Source: a virus. From it: a stretch of 32,099 nucleotides of DNA. The notes under the pieces are model-generated. The model did not search any database and was not told where the DNA came from. It saw only the letters and a program-made list of their open reading frames with translations. The number at the start of each line of letters is the position of its first letter. Within the stretch, counting starts at the first letter, position 1. The stretch is from positions 1-32,099 of IMG/VR virus record IMGVR_UViG_3300046532_002069; one strand, given 5' to 3'. Below, in pieces: positions 17,464 through 28,488 of the stretch. The position numbers were made by a program, and so were the translations under genes.

Positions 17464-18876
17464 TCAAACAATCCAACTGTTATTGCCGTAGTCCAAAGAT
17501 GAACGTGATGCATACGAAGAAACAGAGCCGGATGCGCGAACAGCCTGCCCTGCAAAAGTTAAAACGAATGCATCAGCCAAGTCAGGCGAGCGTAAGCCCC
17601 TGCGCTTCATCTCATCTTTGCCTTCAGCCTTAAATTTACCAGAGCTAAGAACCTTGAAGCGTATGGAGGTTAGCTCATGTATCAATTCTTCTTGCTCTGG
17701 TATTTTGCAATCCTTGGCTTCAAACCACTCACGGCAGTTAAACCAAAGCTCATCTCGTAGGCGCTGATAACGTCCAGCCAATGCTGGGCTTTCAGAAACA
17801 TTCACACCACGCGCAGGCATGCCAAGCTCAATCAACCGATCAACTGCACCAGCGCCAATACCAATCACATCGCAGCAAATTTCGCTAGGACGATCCATAT
17901 AAGGCGTTGCTTCATACTCAGACAAGACAAGCCCGACAGTCTCCATAAGGTCTTTGCCCTGCCACGACTTGATAGGCTCAAGCAAAACATTGCCCTGACG
18001 CTTGCATAGCGCTGTTCTGTCGCTACCATACCTTGCCAAGTCCAAGCCCCAGACAGGGGCGACAGTCATAGCCTCAACATCACGCGCCACAGCGGCGTCA
18101 ACTAAATGCCTTGAAATAAGGCTATCGTCAGAATTAGTCGGGAACTCGCCAAGACAGCGAATTGCGAAAACTGCGCTTTCCTCGCCGTATTGCTGGGCCA
18201 TGTCCTCAATAAAATCGGCAGAGACATATTCAGCATCGGCGCAGCTAACAGTCATCTTATGCCAACGGTGGGCGTTCCTGTGAAATGCATCATAGAAATA
18301 CCCAGATGAGCGGGTGGGGTTGCCAACCATCAGGATTTTGCTGCCAGCCGTGCTGAGAGCGCCTTGGGCAACCTCAAAAATAATATCGTCAACGCCAGAA
18401 CATTCATCAATAACAAAAAGCAGGTTCTCATGGTGAAACCCTTGTAGGGCTTCTGGGTTTTCCTTGCGGCTAACCCTAGCGTGAACGCTGCTGTCTATGC
18501 CTTTTAGCGTGATTTTGTCAGAGGTAATCTCAAGCTGGTCTTGTAAACCTTGGGGCATCTTTCTGGCCCACTTTTGTATTTCATTCCATAACACCTGGTT
18601 AAGCTGATTGGCGCTGTTGGCTGTACACACCACACGGCAAGGGCGCGTGATTAAGTACCACAAAATAACCCAAGAAAGCAGCGCAGACTTGCCCACGCCA
18701 TGCCCAGATTTGCAGGCCACGCGAGAGCTATCACGAACGCCGTTCAGAGCGGCTCGCTGCCATGCTTGGGGTTCAGCGCCAAGGACAGACTTAACGAATA
18801 ACACAGGGTCGCCGTGAAGCTTGAGGAGCGTGTCAGAAAGGTTGGTCTGCTTGGGGGTACGCTGTGGTTTTGCCAT
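17464..18876 (-). CDS. terL: Terminase large subunit (470 aa)
   Basis: ATP-driven DNA packaging motor and nuclease. Walker A is GHGVGKS at residues 58-64, Walker B is LLFVIDE at 152-158 with catalytic E158, and the coupling motif is VGNPTR near 184-189. A C-terminal RNase H-like nuclease begins near residue 275: acidic residues D279 (WGLDLARYGSDRT), D336 (CCDVIGIGAGAVD) and D432/D435 (SPDLADAF) are all present, so both activities look intact. Length is normal. The start lacks a Shine-Dalgarno site: the 20 bases before it on the coding strand are pyrimidine-rich. It is preceded by a 337-base gap with a strong promoter and G-runs, and followed by the small basic gene and portal. Confidence 0.92.
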   Translation of the reverse strand: MAKPQRTPKQTNLSDTLLKLHGDPVLFVKSVLGAEPQAWQRAALNGVRDSSRVACKSGHGVGKSALLSWVILWYLITRPCRVVCTANSANQLNQVLWNEIQKWARKMPQGLQDQLEITSDKITLKGIDSSVHARVSRKENPEALQGFHHENLLFVIDECSGVDDIIFEVAQGALSTAGSKILMVGNPTRSSGYFYDAFHRNAHRWHKMTVSCADAEYVSADFIEDMAQQYGEESAVFAIRCLGEFPTNSDDSLISRHLVDAAVARDVEAMTVAPVWGLDLARYGSDRTALCKRQGNVLLEPIKSWQGKDLMETVGLVLSEYEATPYMDRPSEICCDVIGIGAGAVDRLIELGMPARGVNVSESPALAGRYQRLRDELWFNCREWFEAKDCKIPEQEELIHELTSIRFKVLSSGKFKAEGKDEMKRRGLRSPDLADAFVLTFAGQAVRASGSVSSYASRSSLDYGNNSWIV

Positions 18877-19213
18877 AGGTGAGAGAGCGCCAGAAAAAGA
18901 GGCCCACGGGGGAGAACCGCAGGCCAGTTATGGGAGGAAAGCAGAAAAGAAAAGCATGTATGGGATGAGCCAGCGCCACCACAGGAGAGGAAAAGGAGAC
19001 ACTAGCTCATCATAACAGCGGTATAATAGTCAGGGGGAAGCATGTCAAGGGGTATGGGGAAGGTAGGGGGGGGTGGGGCGAATGTGTGGGGGTATATATA
19101 TATATAGACGGGGGCCAGATCGAGCGACGGGGGGGGCTGCACGTTTAAGGCAAGTTTATGTGCGCAAGATCGCCTTAGAGTGGCATTTAGCCGGACTTTT
19201 GCCGGACTTGTTG
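18877..19213. other. Intergenic region between terS and terL with G-runs
   Basis: No convincing gene. The plus strand is purine-rich from about 18880 to 19010. Between 19033 and 19136 there are eight runs of four or more G (19033-37, 19049-52, 19056-59, 19066-73, 19075-78, 19088-92, 19110-14, 19129-36) and a (TA)7 stretch at 19093-19106. The runs could form G-quadruplexes on the plus strand. A leftward promoter lies at its left part. A packaging (pac or cos) site would also be expected near terS and terL, but none is proven here. Confidence 0.6.
19020..19048 (-). promoter_or_regulatory. Candidate late promoter for terL and the structural operon
   Basis: On the minus strand a perfect -35 TTGACA (19043-19048) is separated by 17 bases from TATACC (19020-19025). 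Transcription would start about 135 bases before terL, leaving a pyrimidine-rich leader. The G-run tract lies immediately upstream of, and partly within, the promoter spacer. No matching operator (ATGAATAA) is seen here, so it may be controlled differently from the early promoters. Confidence 0.6.
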
Positions 19214-22311: not shown

Positions 22312-22684
22312 TTTTGCACGGAACCGCCGTGTAAATCCAGCCGCCCAAGGCTATTTCAGTTTGGGTCACGCTACACCAACCACGCTTTTGCATATCGTCT
22401 TTTGTGACAAACTTTTTTAGCCTTAGGCTATTGCAGCTCGCCGCTATACTATTGACAGGCATGTCGATATGTTCGACGAGTTGCCCAGCCGTCGACGGGC
22501 CAAGCCAGCGCAGCAATCGCAAAACCTCAAACGCTCGAAGTGGCAAGTCTGAGTTGTTCACCTTTTCCAAATCAATTGGGAGGGGACTGCTGCGAACACC
22601 GTTCTTGTAATCCGCTCTCTCAAACGAGATCATCGCTTCGCCAAGCGTTTGCTCCGATTCGTAACCCTTCAGCATACTATTCAT
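22304..22684 (-). CDS. Winged-helix DNA-binding protein (126 aa)
   Basis: Residues 50-100 look like a winged helix: LRAFEVLRLLRWLGPSTAGQL (helices 1-2), then EHIDMPVNSIAASCNSLRLKKFVTKDD (recognition helix and wing), then a β-ending with GWCSVTQTEIALGGWIYTAV. The N-terminal 45 residues are variable. This suggests a transcription or replication regulator; a late-gene activator is possible because it lies near the end of the early operon. Starts with an eight-base overlap of the preceding gene. Homology to MarR-like domains is by pattern only. Confidence 0.55.
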   Translation of the reverse strand: MNSMLKGYESEQTLGEAMISFERADYKNGVRSSPLPIDLEKVNNSDLPLRAFEVLRLLRWLGPSTAGQLVEHIDMPVNSIAASCNSLRLKKFVTKDDMQKRGWCSVTQTEIALGGWIYTAVPCKNE

Positions 22685-23000
22685 TCTCTATTTCCCATTT
22701 GCGTTGTTTGATCATTTGGATTTGCACGGCGTTCCACGTTGGCAGTTGCGGAGCGTTTAGAAATTTTCTCCGATTTGCGACACCTTCTAATTCCTCTCGC
22801 GTTTCAATTTTCGCCAAAACGAAACCAAATTCTTTTTCTTTTAATTCACTCCAATCAAGACACGTTTCAAGACAGGTCACGGGGACAGGACAGACACCCC
22901 TTAGGGTGGTGTCATGTGTCCTGAACCCTTCCTTTATGACCCCACTGTGTCCCAGCCTTGTCCCAGCCTTGTCCTGACTTTCCTTAACCCGTTGTTTCAT
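22677..23000 (-). CDS. Unknown protein overlapping the GGACA/TGTCC cluster (107 aa)
   Basis: Start taken as ATG 22998-23000, which has AGGA eight bases upstream; an extension to 23042 would run further into the repeats. The first ~50 residues (MKQRVKESQDKAGTRLGHSG, then THDTTLRGVCPVPVTCLETC) are encoded by the short TGTCC repeats and look unlike an ordinary fold. The second half (SELKEKEFGFVLAKIETREELEGV, then RRKFLNAPQLPTWNAVQIQMIKQRKWEIEN) looks like a normal helical protein. It may bind the repeats, as many origin or operator proteins are encoded beside their sites, but this is inference. Ends with an 8-base overlap. Confidence 0.5.
   Translation of the reverse strand: MKQRVKESQDKAGTRLGHSGVIKEGFRTHDTTLRGVCPVPVTCLETCLDWSELKEKEFGFVLAKIETREELEGVANRRKFLNAPQLPTWNAVQIQMIKQRKWEIENE
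22948..22980 (+). repeat. 11-bp tandem repeats (TGTCCCAGCCT)
   Basis: Two exact TGTCCCAGCCT units (22948-22958 and 22959-22969) and a third related unit TGTCCTGACTT (22970-22980). The spacing is about one helical turn, as expected for protein-binding iterons. Inside the 5' half of the 107-aa gene. Confidence 0.85.
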
Positions 23001-23012
23001 AACACTTTTCCT

Positions 23013-23073
23013 AGGACAAACCTCAGGACACGAGGACACCACACCCTATACGGCAGGACAAACCTCAGGACAC
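23013..23073 (+). repeat. Pair of exact 19-bp direct repeats
   Basis: AGGACAAACCTCAGGACAC occurs at 23013-23031 and 23055-23073, 42 bases apart (about four helical turns), in the gap between the primase-helicase stop and the next start. Each holds two GGACA cores 12 bases apart. Confidence 0.9.
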
Positions 23074-23103
23074 AACCTAAACGTGTGTCCCAACAAGCGC
23101 CCC

Positions 23104-24876
23104 TCATGCCACTACAACCTTGCCGCCGCGAAGCGCTAAAACGCCCTTGTCGATCAGCTTTTTGATATGTCTATTTGCCGTCCTCTGGCTGCATTCCAAC
23201 TCCAAGCTGACGGCCTCTTTAAGCTCACTTCTTGGCGCTTCCCCAAACGCATCCACCGTCCTTACTTGGTCAAGCACCACGCTCTGAATGTTCTCTGGCG
23301 ACGCCTTATCAACGGGCTTATCTTCGGTAAGCTCCAGCGCTAGACTTCCCGTTTCGTCGCCCTCATCTGTCACCAGCGAGACAGGCAGCTTGACAAAAGC
23401 CATAGCTTCGGGAGGCTCGGCATCCTTCATTTTGGTGCTTTCTATAATCAGCTTATTGTCGCCCCATGCCGCAACCTTGAACTCAGCATCCAGCGCCCCG
23501 TAGAAAGACGAACTGCCCCTTGCTCTGTCCTTATTTGAATGGCCCGTATGATGAACTACCAGCACACTACAGCCCCACTCTTGCTTTATCTTATCGCAGG
23601 CTTTTATGTACTCCCCGACACGCTCTGAACTGTTCTCGTCCCCCGCCATTGTTCTAGCCAGGGTATCCAGCACAACCAGCGTAGGCTTGCCAACCTTTTC
23701 AGCCATCTTGCTAATTTCGTCTGCCAGCGTCTGCGCGTCTGCTTCCTCGTTCATTATTATTGTGTTATTACTTTTGTAGAACGGCACGTCACCTAATTGC
23801 TGATCATTCACCTTGGCCCACGCCGCAACGCGCCTCGCCATGCCTGCATGACCTTCCCCAGCAATGTATAAGCAAAGCCCTTGCTCTACTTGCTTACCGT
23901 GCCAATCCTTGCCAGCCGCCACGCACAGCGCCATGTCCAGCACAGCAAATGTCTTGCCTGCCCCAGAATTGCCAAACGCCATTATCAGCGCTTCTTTTTC
24001 GAGCATCCCGTCGATCAGCCATTGGGCAGGCTTCATCTTTAAATCGCCTACATGCGTAAACAGCCCGTCACTAACCTTAGCTCGCTGCAAACCTTCCATG
24101 ACCGCTACTACGCCCAGCGTAGCATGCACGTCATTCCAATCCTGACCCTCACCTGATGGAACCGCCCAGCGCTTGCCTGTGGCTTTTGCGGCCTTTATTC
24201 CAGCTTCATCATTGTCTGCCGCAATCACCAACTCTAACTCAGGCCACGCCTTTTCTATAGCTTGCACGGCGACGGGCATATGCCCACTGTCTAGCGCAAA
24301 TATGCATGTTGTGCCTGTCGCTGCGTAGACGCTTGCGCTGGTGGCCCAGCCCTCAGCGACATAGGCTAAGCCTACACCCGTGAGCTTACCCACCACGCCA
24401 AAGCAACCGCTAGACTTATCCAGCCCAGCGTTAAACTTTTTCTTACCATCTGGCGAAATGGTTTGCGTTCCGACGCGCTCTTTGCTGGTGTTGAACAACT
24501 GTATGACTACGTTATCACCACTTAGCTTTGCGCCAAATAATTCAACACCTTTGCGCTCATGGTATAGCTGTGGCGTATCACCGTCACGTAGCAGTTCATC
24601 CAGACTAACACTGGCCTCTCGTAGCGTGATTACGTTGTCTTGCTTGTCGGGCCAAACCCCGTCATGGCGCATTTCTGCAACCATGTCCTTAAACTCGCAG
24701 CCTTGCCTGCAAAATGCTTTAACTATGCCGTTGTGGTTCTTGATCCAAAACCTGTCAGTGCCGCAACAGCAGGGGCATGGGCCATGCCATTCGCCTTTGG
24801 CGCTCTGCTTTAAGCTATACTTTGTCTTTATCGCCTCTGACCATTCTGACCAGTACGCCTCTTGAAAATCGTTCAT
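23104..24876 (-). CDS. DNA primase-helicase fusion with Toprim and RepA-like ATPase (590 aa)
   Basis: Replication enzyme. A zinc-ribbon with C34, C37, C56 and C60 (CPCCCGTDRFW...CRQGC) is followed by a primase Toprim domain (E175 in YVAEGWATSASVYAATG, D221/D223 in IAADNDEAG). Next comes a RecA-fold RepA/DnaB-type ATPase with Walker A GNSGAGKT (302-309), Walker B LVVLD (400-404), VVHHTGH (441-446) and GSSSFYGALDAE. The C-terminus (about 535-590) looks like a winged helix (RSELKEAVSLELECSQRTANRHIKKLIDKGVL). It likely unwinds and primes phage DNA; the host polymerase is then probably needed, because none is encoded. Candidate origin repeats lie just downstream. Starts with ATGA overlap. Confidence 0.88.
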   Translation of the reverse strand: MNDFQEAYWSEWSEAIKTKYSLKQSAKGEWHGPCPCCCGTDRFWIKNHNGIVKAFCRQGCEFKDMVAEMRHDGVWPDKQDNVITLREASVSLDELLRDGDTPQLYHERKGVELFGAKLSGDNVVIQLFNTSKERVGTQTISPDGKKKFNAGLDKSSGCFGVVGKLTGVGLAYVAEGWATSASVYAATGTTCIFALDSGHMPVAVQAIEKAWPELELVIAADNDEAGIKAAKATGKRWAVPSGEGQDWNDVHATLGVVAVMEGLQRAKVSDGLFTHVGDLKMKPAQWLIDGMLEKEALIMAFGNSGAGKTFAVLDMALCVAAGKDWHGKQVEQGLCLYIAGEGHAGMARRVAAWAKVNDQQLGDVPFYKSNNTIIMNEEADAQTLADEISKMAEKVGKPTLVVLDTLARTMAGDENSSERVGEYIKACDKIKQEWGCSVLVVHHTGHSNKDRARGSSSFYGALDAEFKVAAWGDNKLIIESTKMKDAEPPEAMAFVKLPVSLVTDEGDETGSLALELTEDKPVDKASPENIQSVVLDQVRTVDAFGEAPRSELKEAVSLELECSQRTANRHIKKLIDKGVLALRGGKVVVA

Positions 24877-27483: not shown

Positions 27484-27635
27484 TCTTCTTCCTCATCCGC
27501 TGAAATCTTGCCTTCGCCGTTGCAAAACATGCAATCTTCAAGCTGTTCGATTGGCTCTAAGCCTCTGCCGAAATTGGCCCAGCCGCCCACGTCAACCTTG
27601 CCTTGACCGTCACACTCTGGGCATTTACGCATCAT
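27480..27635 (-). CDS. Small zinc-finger protein with two CxxCxGxG motifs (51 aa)
   Basis: A 51-residue frame that encodes CPECDGQGKV near the N-terminus and CMFCNGEGKI near residue 35, i.e. two DnaJ-type CxxCxGxG motifs expected to bind one zinc ion. The C-terminus is acidic (SADEEEE). It overlaps the C5 methyltransferase end by 11 bases (ATGATG start; the second ATG at 27630-27632 is possible) and the exonuclease start by four bases. Similar tiny rubredoxin-like or DnaJ-finger proteins occur in phage early operons with unknown partners. Confidence 0.65.
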   Translation of the reverse strand: MMRKCPECDGQGKVDVGGWANFGRGLEPIEQLEDCMFCNGEGKISADEEEE

Positions 27636-28488
27636 GGATCACCGCCTTGATCGTCTGCCCAATCCGCATGGCAACTTGTGGAACGATTGCGTTGCCTAGC
27701 CCTTTAAGTCTGTCCACCCTTCCGGGTATCCCATTAGCCACTCGACCCACTGAGGGTTCAGTGAGCCAGGCGTTGCCTCCTTTCTGCCCACGGCTCTGCG
27801 TAAGCATTCGTCTCCAATCGCACTCTCTGCCCAGTTTGAGACGTCTCCCGTCATCTTCCAATCTCTTGCTCTGGGTGTCGGCCACATCGCTACTGCTGTT
27901 GCTAGGGAATTGCCTCTTGATGGGATTTTCTTTTCGTCTCCCTTGTGGTTCTTGTACGGCCCTCCTGTTGAGGCTAACGGTGTCGGCCACATTTCGGGCG
28001 ACGATCCAGAGTCTATCTCGTCTGTGAGGTGCGTCCGTGGCGCAAGCTGGAACAACGAACGGCCTGACGGCGTAGGCTTCACGTTCCAAGTCAGAAAGCA
28101 CTTCGTCGAGGCCCATAGAGACATGCCCATAAACATTTTCGAAAACGCACCAAGCTGGTCGTTTTGCTTGAACAATGGAAAATATGTATGGCCAGATATG
28201 TCTGTCATCTTCACTGCCCCTACGCTCCCCGGCCAGTGAAAAGGGCTGGCATGGGTATCCGGCTGTGAGGATTGTTCGTCTTGGGTCTGTGCCTGGAATA
28301 AGTCCATCTGGGTCATTAGCAAGCTCCTTTACATCTGTAGCTATCGGCACGTCAGGCCAGTGTTTTCTCAATATCTTTCGGCTCCAAGGCTCTATGTCGC
28401 AGAACAAGACAGGCTTACTTAAACCAGCCCATTCAAAGCCAAGGGCAAAGCCGCCTATGCCACTGCACAGATCAACGTGCGCCATCAT
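27625..28488 (-). CDS. DNA (cytosine-5) methyltransferase (287 aa)
   Basis: Orphan C5 methyltransferase, with no cognate restriction gene beside it. Motif I DLCSGIGGFALGF (residues 6-18), motif IV GYPCQPFSLAGERRG with catalytic C80, motif VI FENVYG (116-121), motif VIII APHRRDRLWIVA, and motif X GLGNAIVPQVA near 263-273 are all present, so it appears active. The target-recognition part between VIII and IX is about 95 residues, short and compositionally odd (RRAVQEPQGRRKENPIKRQ, SNSSSDVADTQS). A second gene runs in another frame through codons 58-264. Function may be self-protection from host restriction. ATGA overlap with the upstream gene. Confidence 0.88.
   Translation of the reverse strand: MMAHVDLCSGIGGFALGFEWAGLSKPVLFCDIEPWSRKILRKHWPDVPIATDVKELANDPDGLIPGTDPRRTILTAGYPCQPFSLAGERRGSEDDRHIWPYIFSIVQAKRPAWCVFENVYGHVSMGLDEVLSDLEREAYAVRPFVVPACATDAPHRRDRLWIVARNVADTVSLNRRAVQEPQGRRKENPIKRQFPSNSSSDVADTQSKRLEDDGRRLKLGRECDWRRMLTQSRGQKGGNAWLTEPSVGRVANGIPGRVDRLKGLGNAIVPQVAMRIGQTIKAVIHDA
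27696..28316 (-). CDS. Nested out-of-frame gene inside the C5 methyltransferase: WPTP / LNPxWVEWLMGYP family protein (206 aa)
   Basis: Same strand, different frame from the methyltransferase and wholly inside it. The protein resembles a phage and prophage family that accompanies or is fused to C5 methyltransferases: LGAFSKMFMGMSLWASTKCF near 55-73, LTWNVKPTPSGRSLFQLAPRT, MWPTP at 109-113 and 144-148, and LNPQWVEWLMGYPEGWTDL near the C-terminus. The ATG at 28314-28316 has AAAGGAG with a 7-base spacer, a strong ribosome site within the methyltransferase frame. Recognisable motifs in both frames suggest genuine overprinting. Role is unknown; help in target recognition is a guess. Absence of homologues in this frame would refute it. 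Confidence 0.7.
   Translation of the reverse strand: MTQMDLFQAQTQDEQSSQPDTHASPFHWPGSVGAVKMTDISGHTYFPLFKQNDQLGAFSKMFMGMSLWASTKCFLTWNVKPTPSGRSLFQLAPRTHLTDEIDSGSSPEMWPTPLASTGGPYKNHKGDEKKIPSRGNSLATAVAMWPTPRARDWKMTGDVSNWAESAIGDECLRRAVGRKEATPGSLNPQWVEWLMGYPEGWTDLKG

Follow-up and report, generated by a model that had tools for sequence, protein, structure and literature searches.

The window analysed here is the whole stretch of 32,099 nucleotides of the IMG/VR virus record IMGVR_UViG_3300046532_002069. It carries genes for a portal, a major head protein, a scaffold and a terminase (17464-18876), together with genes for an integrase, a repressor-like protein, an exonuclease VIII-like protein and a Gp2.5-like single-strand binding protein. 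On the basis of the structural genes, the integrase and the repressor-like protein, the window can be assigned to a tailed phage of the temperate type. The early region also contains a gene for a C5-cytosine DNA methyltransferase (27625-28488; Pfam 1.4e-34). Beside the terminase gene lies a non-coding-looking stretch (18860-19213) with many G-runs and a ATATATATATA tract, in the region of which CCCCC occurs 11 times in 208 nt on the other strand; this is possibly a packaging or regulatory region. The locus considered in the following comprises the gene of a primase-helicase and a cluster of GGACA/TGTCC repeats, or iterons, found directly 3′ of it, at a distance of 13 bp from its stop codon, with these features:

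23104-24876, minus strand: primase-helicase of 590 aa, with Toprim_3 at residues 172-252, AAA_25 at residues 280-448 and a predicted C-terminal winged helix
23107-23298, minus strand: predicted C-terminal winged helix, residues 527-590 (AlphaFold2 model), the proposed iteron reader
23149-23187, minus strand: predicted recognition helix, residues 564-576, in which R569 was aligned by eye with the Q/V position of an A2 clade described below
23014-23090, plus strand: iteron set 1, with GGACA at 23014, 23026, 23034, 23056 and 23068 and TGTCC at 23086; contains both 19-bp direct repeats
22975-23013, no strand: AT-rich gap between the iteron sets, a possible melting region (64% AT, versus 48% in the cluster and 52% in the window)
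22985-22997, minus strand: IHF-like site AAACAACGGGTTA, with one mismatch to WATCAANNNNTTR
22883-22974, plus strand: iteron set 2, with TGTCC at 22948, 22959 and 22970 (11-bp steps) and at 22917, and GGACA at 22883 and 22888
22886-22923, minus strand: hairpin, with an inner stem (22893-22913) around CCCTAAGG and an outer stem made of the inverted iterons CAGGACA/TGTCCTG
22677-23000, minus strand: 107-aa ORF downstream of the helicase, part of a 121-aa ORF (22677-23042), whose first codons traverse set 2 and the hairpin

Read in the orientation of the helicase gene, set 1 (23090 to 23014) is followed by the gap with its IHF-like site (23013 to 22975) and then by set 2 (22974 to 22883), within which the hairpin (22923 to 22886) is found. 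The original prediction had proposed a candidate replication origin in this cluster, based on seven GGACA and five TGTCC copies between 22883 and 23090 where less than one would be expected by chance. Both figures are confirmed, the expectation being about 0.3-0.4 copies per 208 nt (57 copies on both strands of the whole window; mean of 44.9 in 100 shuffles). The same applies to the exact pair of 19-bp repeats 42 bases apart (23013-23031 and 23055-23073), to the 11-bp tandem array (22948, 22959 and 22970), to the switch of strand orientation along the cluster and to its overlap with the 107-aa ORF, with six copies inside this ORF and six in the interval from the helicase stop to its ATG. Outside the cluster, the next best 208 nt of the window hold three copies, and no 208-nt stretch in 60 first-order Markov simulations of the window contained more than four. 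If any 5-mer is admitted, however, the densest one in the same simulations has 7-14 copies and, since the word was not chosen beforehand, the 12 copies alone are not decisive. Decisive evidence for the cluster comes instead from comparison with the sequences of relatives.

The 590-aa protein matches Toprim_3 (1.1e-8) and the RecA-fold domain AAA_25 (1.5e-41) of Pfam. The AlphaFold2 model of the full chain (pLDDT 83.4) has T7 gp4, Twinkle and RSF1010 RepA as its best Foldseek matches, with the likeness to RSF1010 RepA appearing both in structure (1g8y, TMt 0.72) and in sequence (phmmer E 0.0016). For residues 527-590, helices are predicted at 527-541, 549-560 and 564-576 and strands at 546-548, 580-583 and 586-589, and the same order of elements is obtained when the C-terminal domain is modelled alone (pLDDT 85.8). 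We read this predicted helix-strand-helix-helix-strand-strand order as a winged helix; the matches of the model in the PDB are weak (Foldseek, best E 0.014). TOPRIM domain, helicase and predicted winged helix are, in other words, all contained in one protein. Among named phages, Roseobacter phage CRP-406 has the nearest protein (42.5% identity), a hint that the host is a marine alphaproteobacterium.

Relatives of this protein were drawn from IMG/VR, from a species-level genome set and from phage and plasmid records, keeping the best 80 of 165, the best 80 of at least 489 and the best 80 of 124 matches from the three listings. Among the matches listed, 239 loci extend at least 300 nt past the helicase stop. 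These include at least six contigs twice (L007/L188, L008/L186, L009/L187, L012/L189, L015/L190 and L017/L026), a duplication that does not affect the 53 representatives obtained by clustering at 80% identity. Five representatives come from named phage records (L020, L022, L023, L024 and L025), one from a genome contig, one is the window itself and the others come from IMG/VR. In the 239 loci listed, the density of repeated 7-mers peaks 0-200 nt past the helicase stop, with means of 33-41 versus about 8-15 elsewhere, that is about threefold. Moreover, a 6-mer occurring at least five times per 200 nt is found behind the stop in 36 of the 53 representatives versus 12 of 932 control segments from the same loci (Fisher p 2e-42, kinship being removed by the 80% clustering only). 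By this 6-mer measure the array is absent from 17 of the 53; in the clade of L069, L078 and L091 (55 loci), where four members per cluster were looked at, the helicase has the C-terminal domain and these members have no array. Adjacent copies in the same orientation are 10-12 bp apart in 56 of 140 spacings of up to 40 nt, and 5 bp apart in 18 of 140. An array arising by chance, or as a coding artefact of the 107-aa ORF, would agree with the 7-14 copies that some 5-mer reaches in simulations, but its recurrence in 36 of 53 relatives versus 12 of 932 controls, and the six window copies located outside the ORF, reduce the probability of this explanation to almost nothing.

The word of the array varies by clade. 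CAGGACA is found in the window, L004 and L033, GGGGACAT in L031, AAAGACAT in L029, GCGGGACA in L039 and L041, GATGCG-type words in L037, GCGCTTCAC in L046 and TGGAA types in L020 and L044, with TGAACCA, CGGTACA, AGGGTCA, AGGGGGC, GGTAAC, TACTAA and others further off. Conservation in relatives, whose absence the original prediction had named as evidence against an origin, thus extends to the position and layout of the array, but not to its word. Among nine further loci outside the 53, hand-picked from the lists of relatives, an array stands right behind the stop in five: Rhizobium phage 16-3 (CGTGACA, 13 copies), Caenibius plasmid p1 (TGCGGAA, 12), Roseobacter phage CRP-823 (CTACAAA, 11), a Manatee Spring phage (TGGGACA, 8) and a K. 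pneumoniae phage-like plasmid (TGCCGCA, 6). It is absent from the other four, namely Salmonella houtenae (L266), Corynebacterium phage phi674, Caulobacter phage GB2A and Vibrio phage 1.210.O. Nothing on the origin of phage 16-3 was found in the part of the literature accessible to the search. The K. pneumoniae record pKp_Goe_795-4 (L263/L271) is circular, 17 kb long, and carries a terminase, a capsid, a tape measure and an integrase along with the helicase-iteron module; it is an excised prophage or satellite rather than an ordinary plasmid. No other replication initiator is listed in either circular 'plasmid' record carrying the module. In L183, an array of 11 GTACAA copies lies about 1.7 kb beyond the end of the helicase gene, and its cluster mate L174 has no array; some origins may therefore have been parted from the initiator gene.

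Clustered repeats also mark pac/cos or parS-like sites in other replicons, and the array could in principle serve packaging or partition. This function is very improbable for the cluster, however, given that the terminase gene is 4 kb away, that the window encodes an integrase and no partition gene was seen among the proteins scanned, and that the place of the array is tied to the helicase across families.

Further elements accompany the arrays. Folding of 22880-22925 gives -12.7 kcal/mol (z -3.56); the window hairpin has a bulge and is counted by neither of the two hairpin scans, which consider perfect stems and palindromes, respectively. In 36 of 53 representatives, a perfect hairpin with a stem of at least 8 bp occurs no further than 400 nt from the stop; most of these hairpins are located 0-300 nt behind it, and they are rare elsewhere. 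Palindromes centred on YCT(W0-3)AGR with at least three flanking pairs, here called CTWWAG hairpins, are present in 29 of 53 representatives versus 6 of 932 controls. The window site was scored against WATCAANNNNTTR, which we take to be the IHF consensus and which in its strict form is found in only 3 of 53 regions. In the three families distinguished among the relatives (A1, to which the window belongs, A2 and A3), these elements are unevenly distributed: the IHF-like WANCAANNNNTTR is seen in 7 of 14 A3 regions versus 17 of 231 controls, and the exact DnaA box TTATCCACA in 6 of 25 A2 regions versus 2 of 453 controls. The window region has no DnaA box and does have the IHF-like site. AAAAACAAYGACTTAG, considered as a third element, is more plausibly an IHF-like site, frequent in A3 alone (within four mismatches, 8 of 14 regions in A3, 3 of 12 in A1 and 3 of 25 in A2). 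On the whole, comparison supports the candidate origin well, by way of same-place arrays in most relatives with 10-12-bp spacing and, in addition, of two sets round an AT-rich gap, the hairpin and the DnaA boxes or IHF-like sites of some clades. The GC skew lends it no support: its sign stays the same at 22.9-23.1 kb, and the genes of that region are mostly on the minus strand.

The 107-aa ORF had been suggested to encode the protein that binds the cluster. This part of the original prediction finds no support, as the protein has no Pfam, PHROG or NCBIfam match, its conserved part in the A1 family is the C-terminal half and the arrays of other families stand beside different downstream genes. 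A better candidate for the binder is the predicted C-terminal winged helix of the primase-helicase. Among the 9 A1 representatives in which a search by pattern found the ORF, 7 (the window, L029, L031, L039, L041, L020 and L044) have a reading frame that stays free of stops deep into the array or across it; in 3 of 12 the search found none. The origin may thus be translated as a variable N-terminal part, and the array may be embedded in coding sequence, chance being also possible.

The position of the array between genes would also suit an operator for the downstream genes, bound by the winged helix or by a phage repressor, with replication starting elsewhere. Winged helices are indeed common in regulators, the weak Foldseek matches of the domain include MarR- and IclR-type proteins, and in several A2 phages a Cro-like or 'transcriptional regulator' gene lies ahead of the helicase. 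Nevertheless, up to 14 copies over about 200 bp, together with a hairpin and the DnaA boxes of A2, constitute an origin-like layout, and the array stays in place while the downstream genes differ between families; an operator is accordingly considered unlikely.

The word of the array changes together with the predicted recognition helix. Specifically, when the core is held fixed, word similarity tracks the similarity of the last 100 residues, with partial rank correlations of 0.35, 0.11 and 0.38 in the three families (permutation p of 0.06, 0.055 and 0.0045), the Mantel results for A1 and A2 being borderline and the A2 effect small (0.11). In an A2 clade with the helix SAK[Q/V/T]Y, GGTAAC is present in 12 of 13 Q loci, the 13th (L124) having neither word, and GGAAC in 13 of 13 V or T loci, so that Q versus V/T matches GGTAAC versus GGAAC in 25 of 25 word-bearing loci. 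A tree of the core, from which the C-terminus was left out, shows six changes of the helix residue and six of the word, and the two agree in all 25 scored loci; independent pairs on strongly supported branches are concordant in 3 of 3 cases, too few for significance alone. Helix types and words also switch in an A3 clade, 11-12 times according to its core tree, where some of the branches concerned are weak. The A3 triplet before YKQ was rejected as a universal code: SQT occurs with TACTAA in 25 loci and with TAATAA in 10 loci of a distant clade, TST occurs with TAATAA in 2 loci, and 46 of 107 motif-bearing loci are without any word.

Near-identical pairs (mostly above 90% over 2.7 kb) have an excess of differences in two islands, the recognition-helix codons and the array. 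In L206/L204, for example, TACTAA is changed to TAATAA in most copies, with much of the IHF-like stretch and the hairpin unchanged. Since the array adjoins the gene of its proposed reader, recombination could pass both on together and so give the appearance of co-evolution. Array and wHTH-coding gene end might then be a single recombination cassette, co-varying by linkage only and bound by another protein, in agreement with their adjacency and with the repeated switches among near-identical cores. In L206/L204 and L132/L164, however, the last 60-75 nt of the gene, located between the islands, are at background identity (96-97%), which favours co-evolution over mere linkage; in L216/L218 and L224/L235 the last nucleotides of the gene between the two islands are not at background identity. 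Moreover, the helix SQRTANRHIK and the word CAGGACA are common to the window, L004 and L033 despite a whole-protein identity to the window of only 52-58%, and no downstream protein common to all families was seen. Linkage as the sole cause is therefore rated improbable.

The reading that we prefer, with a probability of roughly 80%, is that the cluster is the replication origin of the phage and that its initiator is the primase-helicase whose gene ends beside it. The C-terminal winged helix would bind GGACA-type iterons in the two sets flanking the AT-rich gap, each helical turn being occupied by about one protomer, and host IHF (in the window) or DnaA (in some relatives) would assist in shaping or opening the DNA. 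Crowded together in this way, the RecA-fold (SF4) helicase domains would assemble on the opened gap, making a separate initiator or loader unneeded. Subsequent unwinding would expose the CTWWAG hairpin, and on it the TOPRIM domain may synthesise the first primer, in the manner of RepB′ at the ssi hairpins of RSF1010. Iteron binding, helicase loading and origin function are what we infer from the sequence data, and priming at the hairpin is speculative.

Several known systems share part of this plan. The helicase of P4 alpha belongs to SF3. In PMC4234260, P4 alpha is described as a single protein with a TOPRIM-type primase, a helicase and a winged helix that binds repeats at its own ori. The 590-aa protein resembles it in the TOPRIM primase domain and in the C-terminal winged helix, predicted and with weak PDB matches, whereas iteron binding is putative here, the observation being the co-variation of helix and word. 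In contrast to P4 alpha, it has no SF3 helicase but a RecA-fold SF4 helicase (AAA_25, of the RSF1010 RepA/T7 gp4 type), and the window family has a hairpin with a CTWWAG centre. For the SaPI/PICI Rep and SCCmec Cch2 proteins, PMC6092414 and PMC7581432 describe iterons directly behind the helicase gene that are read by its C-terminal domain, and for the SaPI/PICI Rep-ori two iteron sets round an AT-rich region. Likewise, iterons lie immediately 3′ of the proposed initiator gene in the window and in 36 of 53 representatives, and two sets flank the gap of 64% AT, a point checked systematically in the window only. The helicase type is however another one and, unlike a satellite element, the window encodes a major head protein, a scaffold, a portal and a terminase. 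As the SF3 and satellite features do not apply, the 590-aa system belongs to neither the P4-alpha type nor the PICIs.

The IncQ plasmid RSF1010 is described as having iterons, the RepA helicase and hairpins where RepB′ primes, with RepA, RepB′ and RepC as separate proteins (PMC4234260). A RepA-fold helicase, iterons and hairpins are found here too, the use of the latter in priming being putative; the difference lies in three separate proteins there, with RepC as initiator and RepB′ as primase, versus one fused TOPRIM protein here. ORF904 of pRN1, according to the same source, unites primase, helicase and winged helix in one chain and has a cis stem-loop element directly 3′ of its gene (PMC4234260). 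The combination of domains in one protein and a cis element 3′ of the protein's own gene are features common to both, but pRN1 has an AEP primase, an SF3 helicase and a 100-nt stem-loop with no iterons. T7 gp4 and Twinkle, the best Foldseek matches, also carry a primase, or its remnant, and an SF4 helicase in one chain. They are not known to have an origin-binding winged helix. The table of PMC4755419 gives no initiator for them. The 590-aa protein joins the helicase type of RSF1010 and T7 gp4 with the plan of P4 and SaPI and, by analogy, would work like them.

No publication on the origin of this primase-helicase family was found, a weak sign of novelty, as most subscription journals lay outside the search. 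A bolder proposal, which we regard as possible though with the odds somewhat against it, is that these proteins are self-sufficient SF4 primase-helicase initiators of a new build, recognising their own origin through the fused winged helix, loading themselves and priming at the CTWWAG hairpin, and that recognition helix and all iterons switch jointly and repeatedly between phages that are otherwise nearly identical, as though some pressure favoured divergence. Such a pressure might arise from incompatibility between a phage and resident prophages, or from the need to escape satellites that borrow the initiator.

If the preferred reading is true, the origins of a large group of mostly uncultured phages could be found by a simple rule, that is, by looking 0-300 nt behind the helicase gene. 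The P4/SaPI layout would also occur with helicases of the SF4 type, whose recruitment to origins usually depends on other proteins. Finally, these phages would supply protein and DNA variants already paired by nature, and a recognition code could be read from them and tested.
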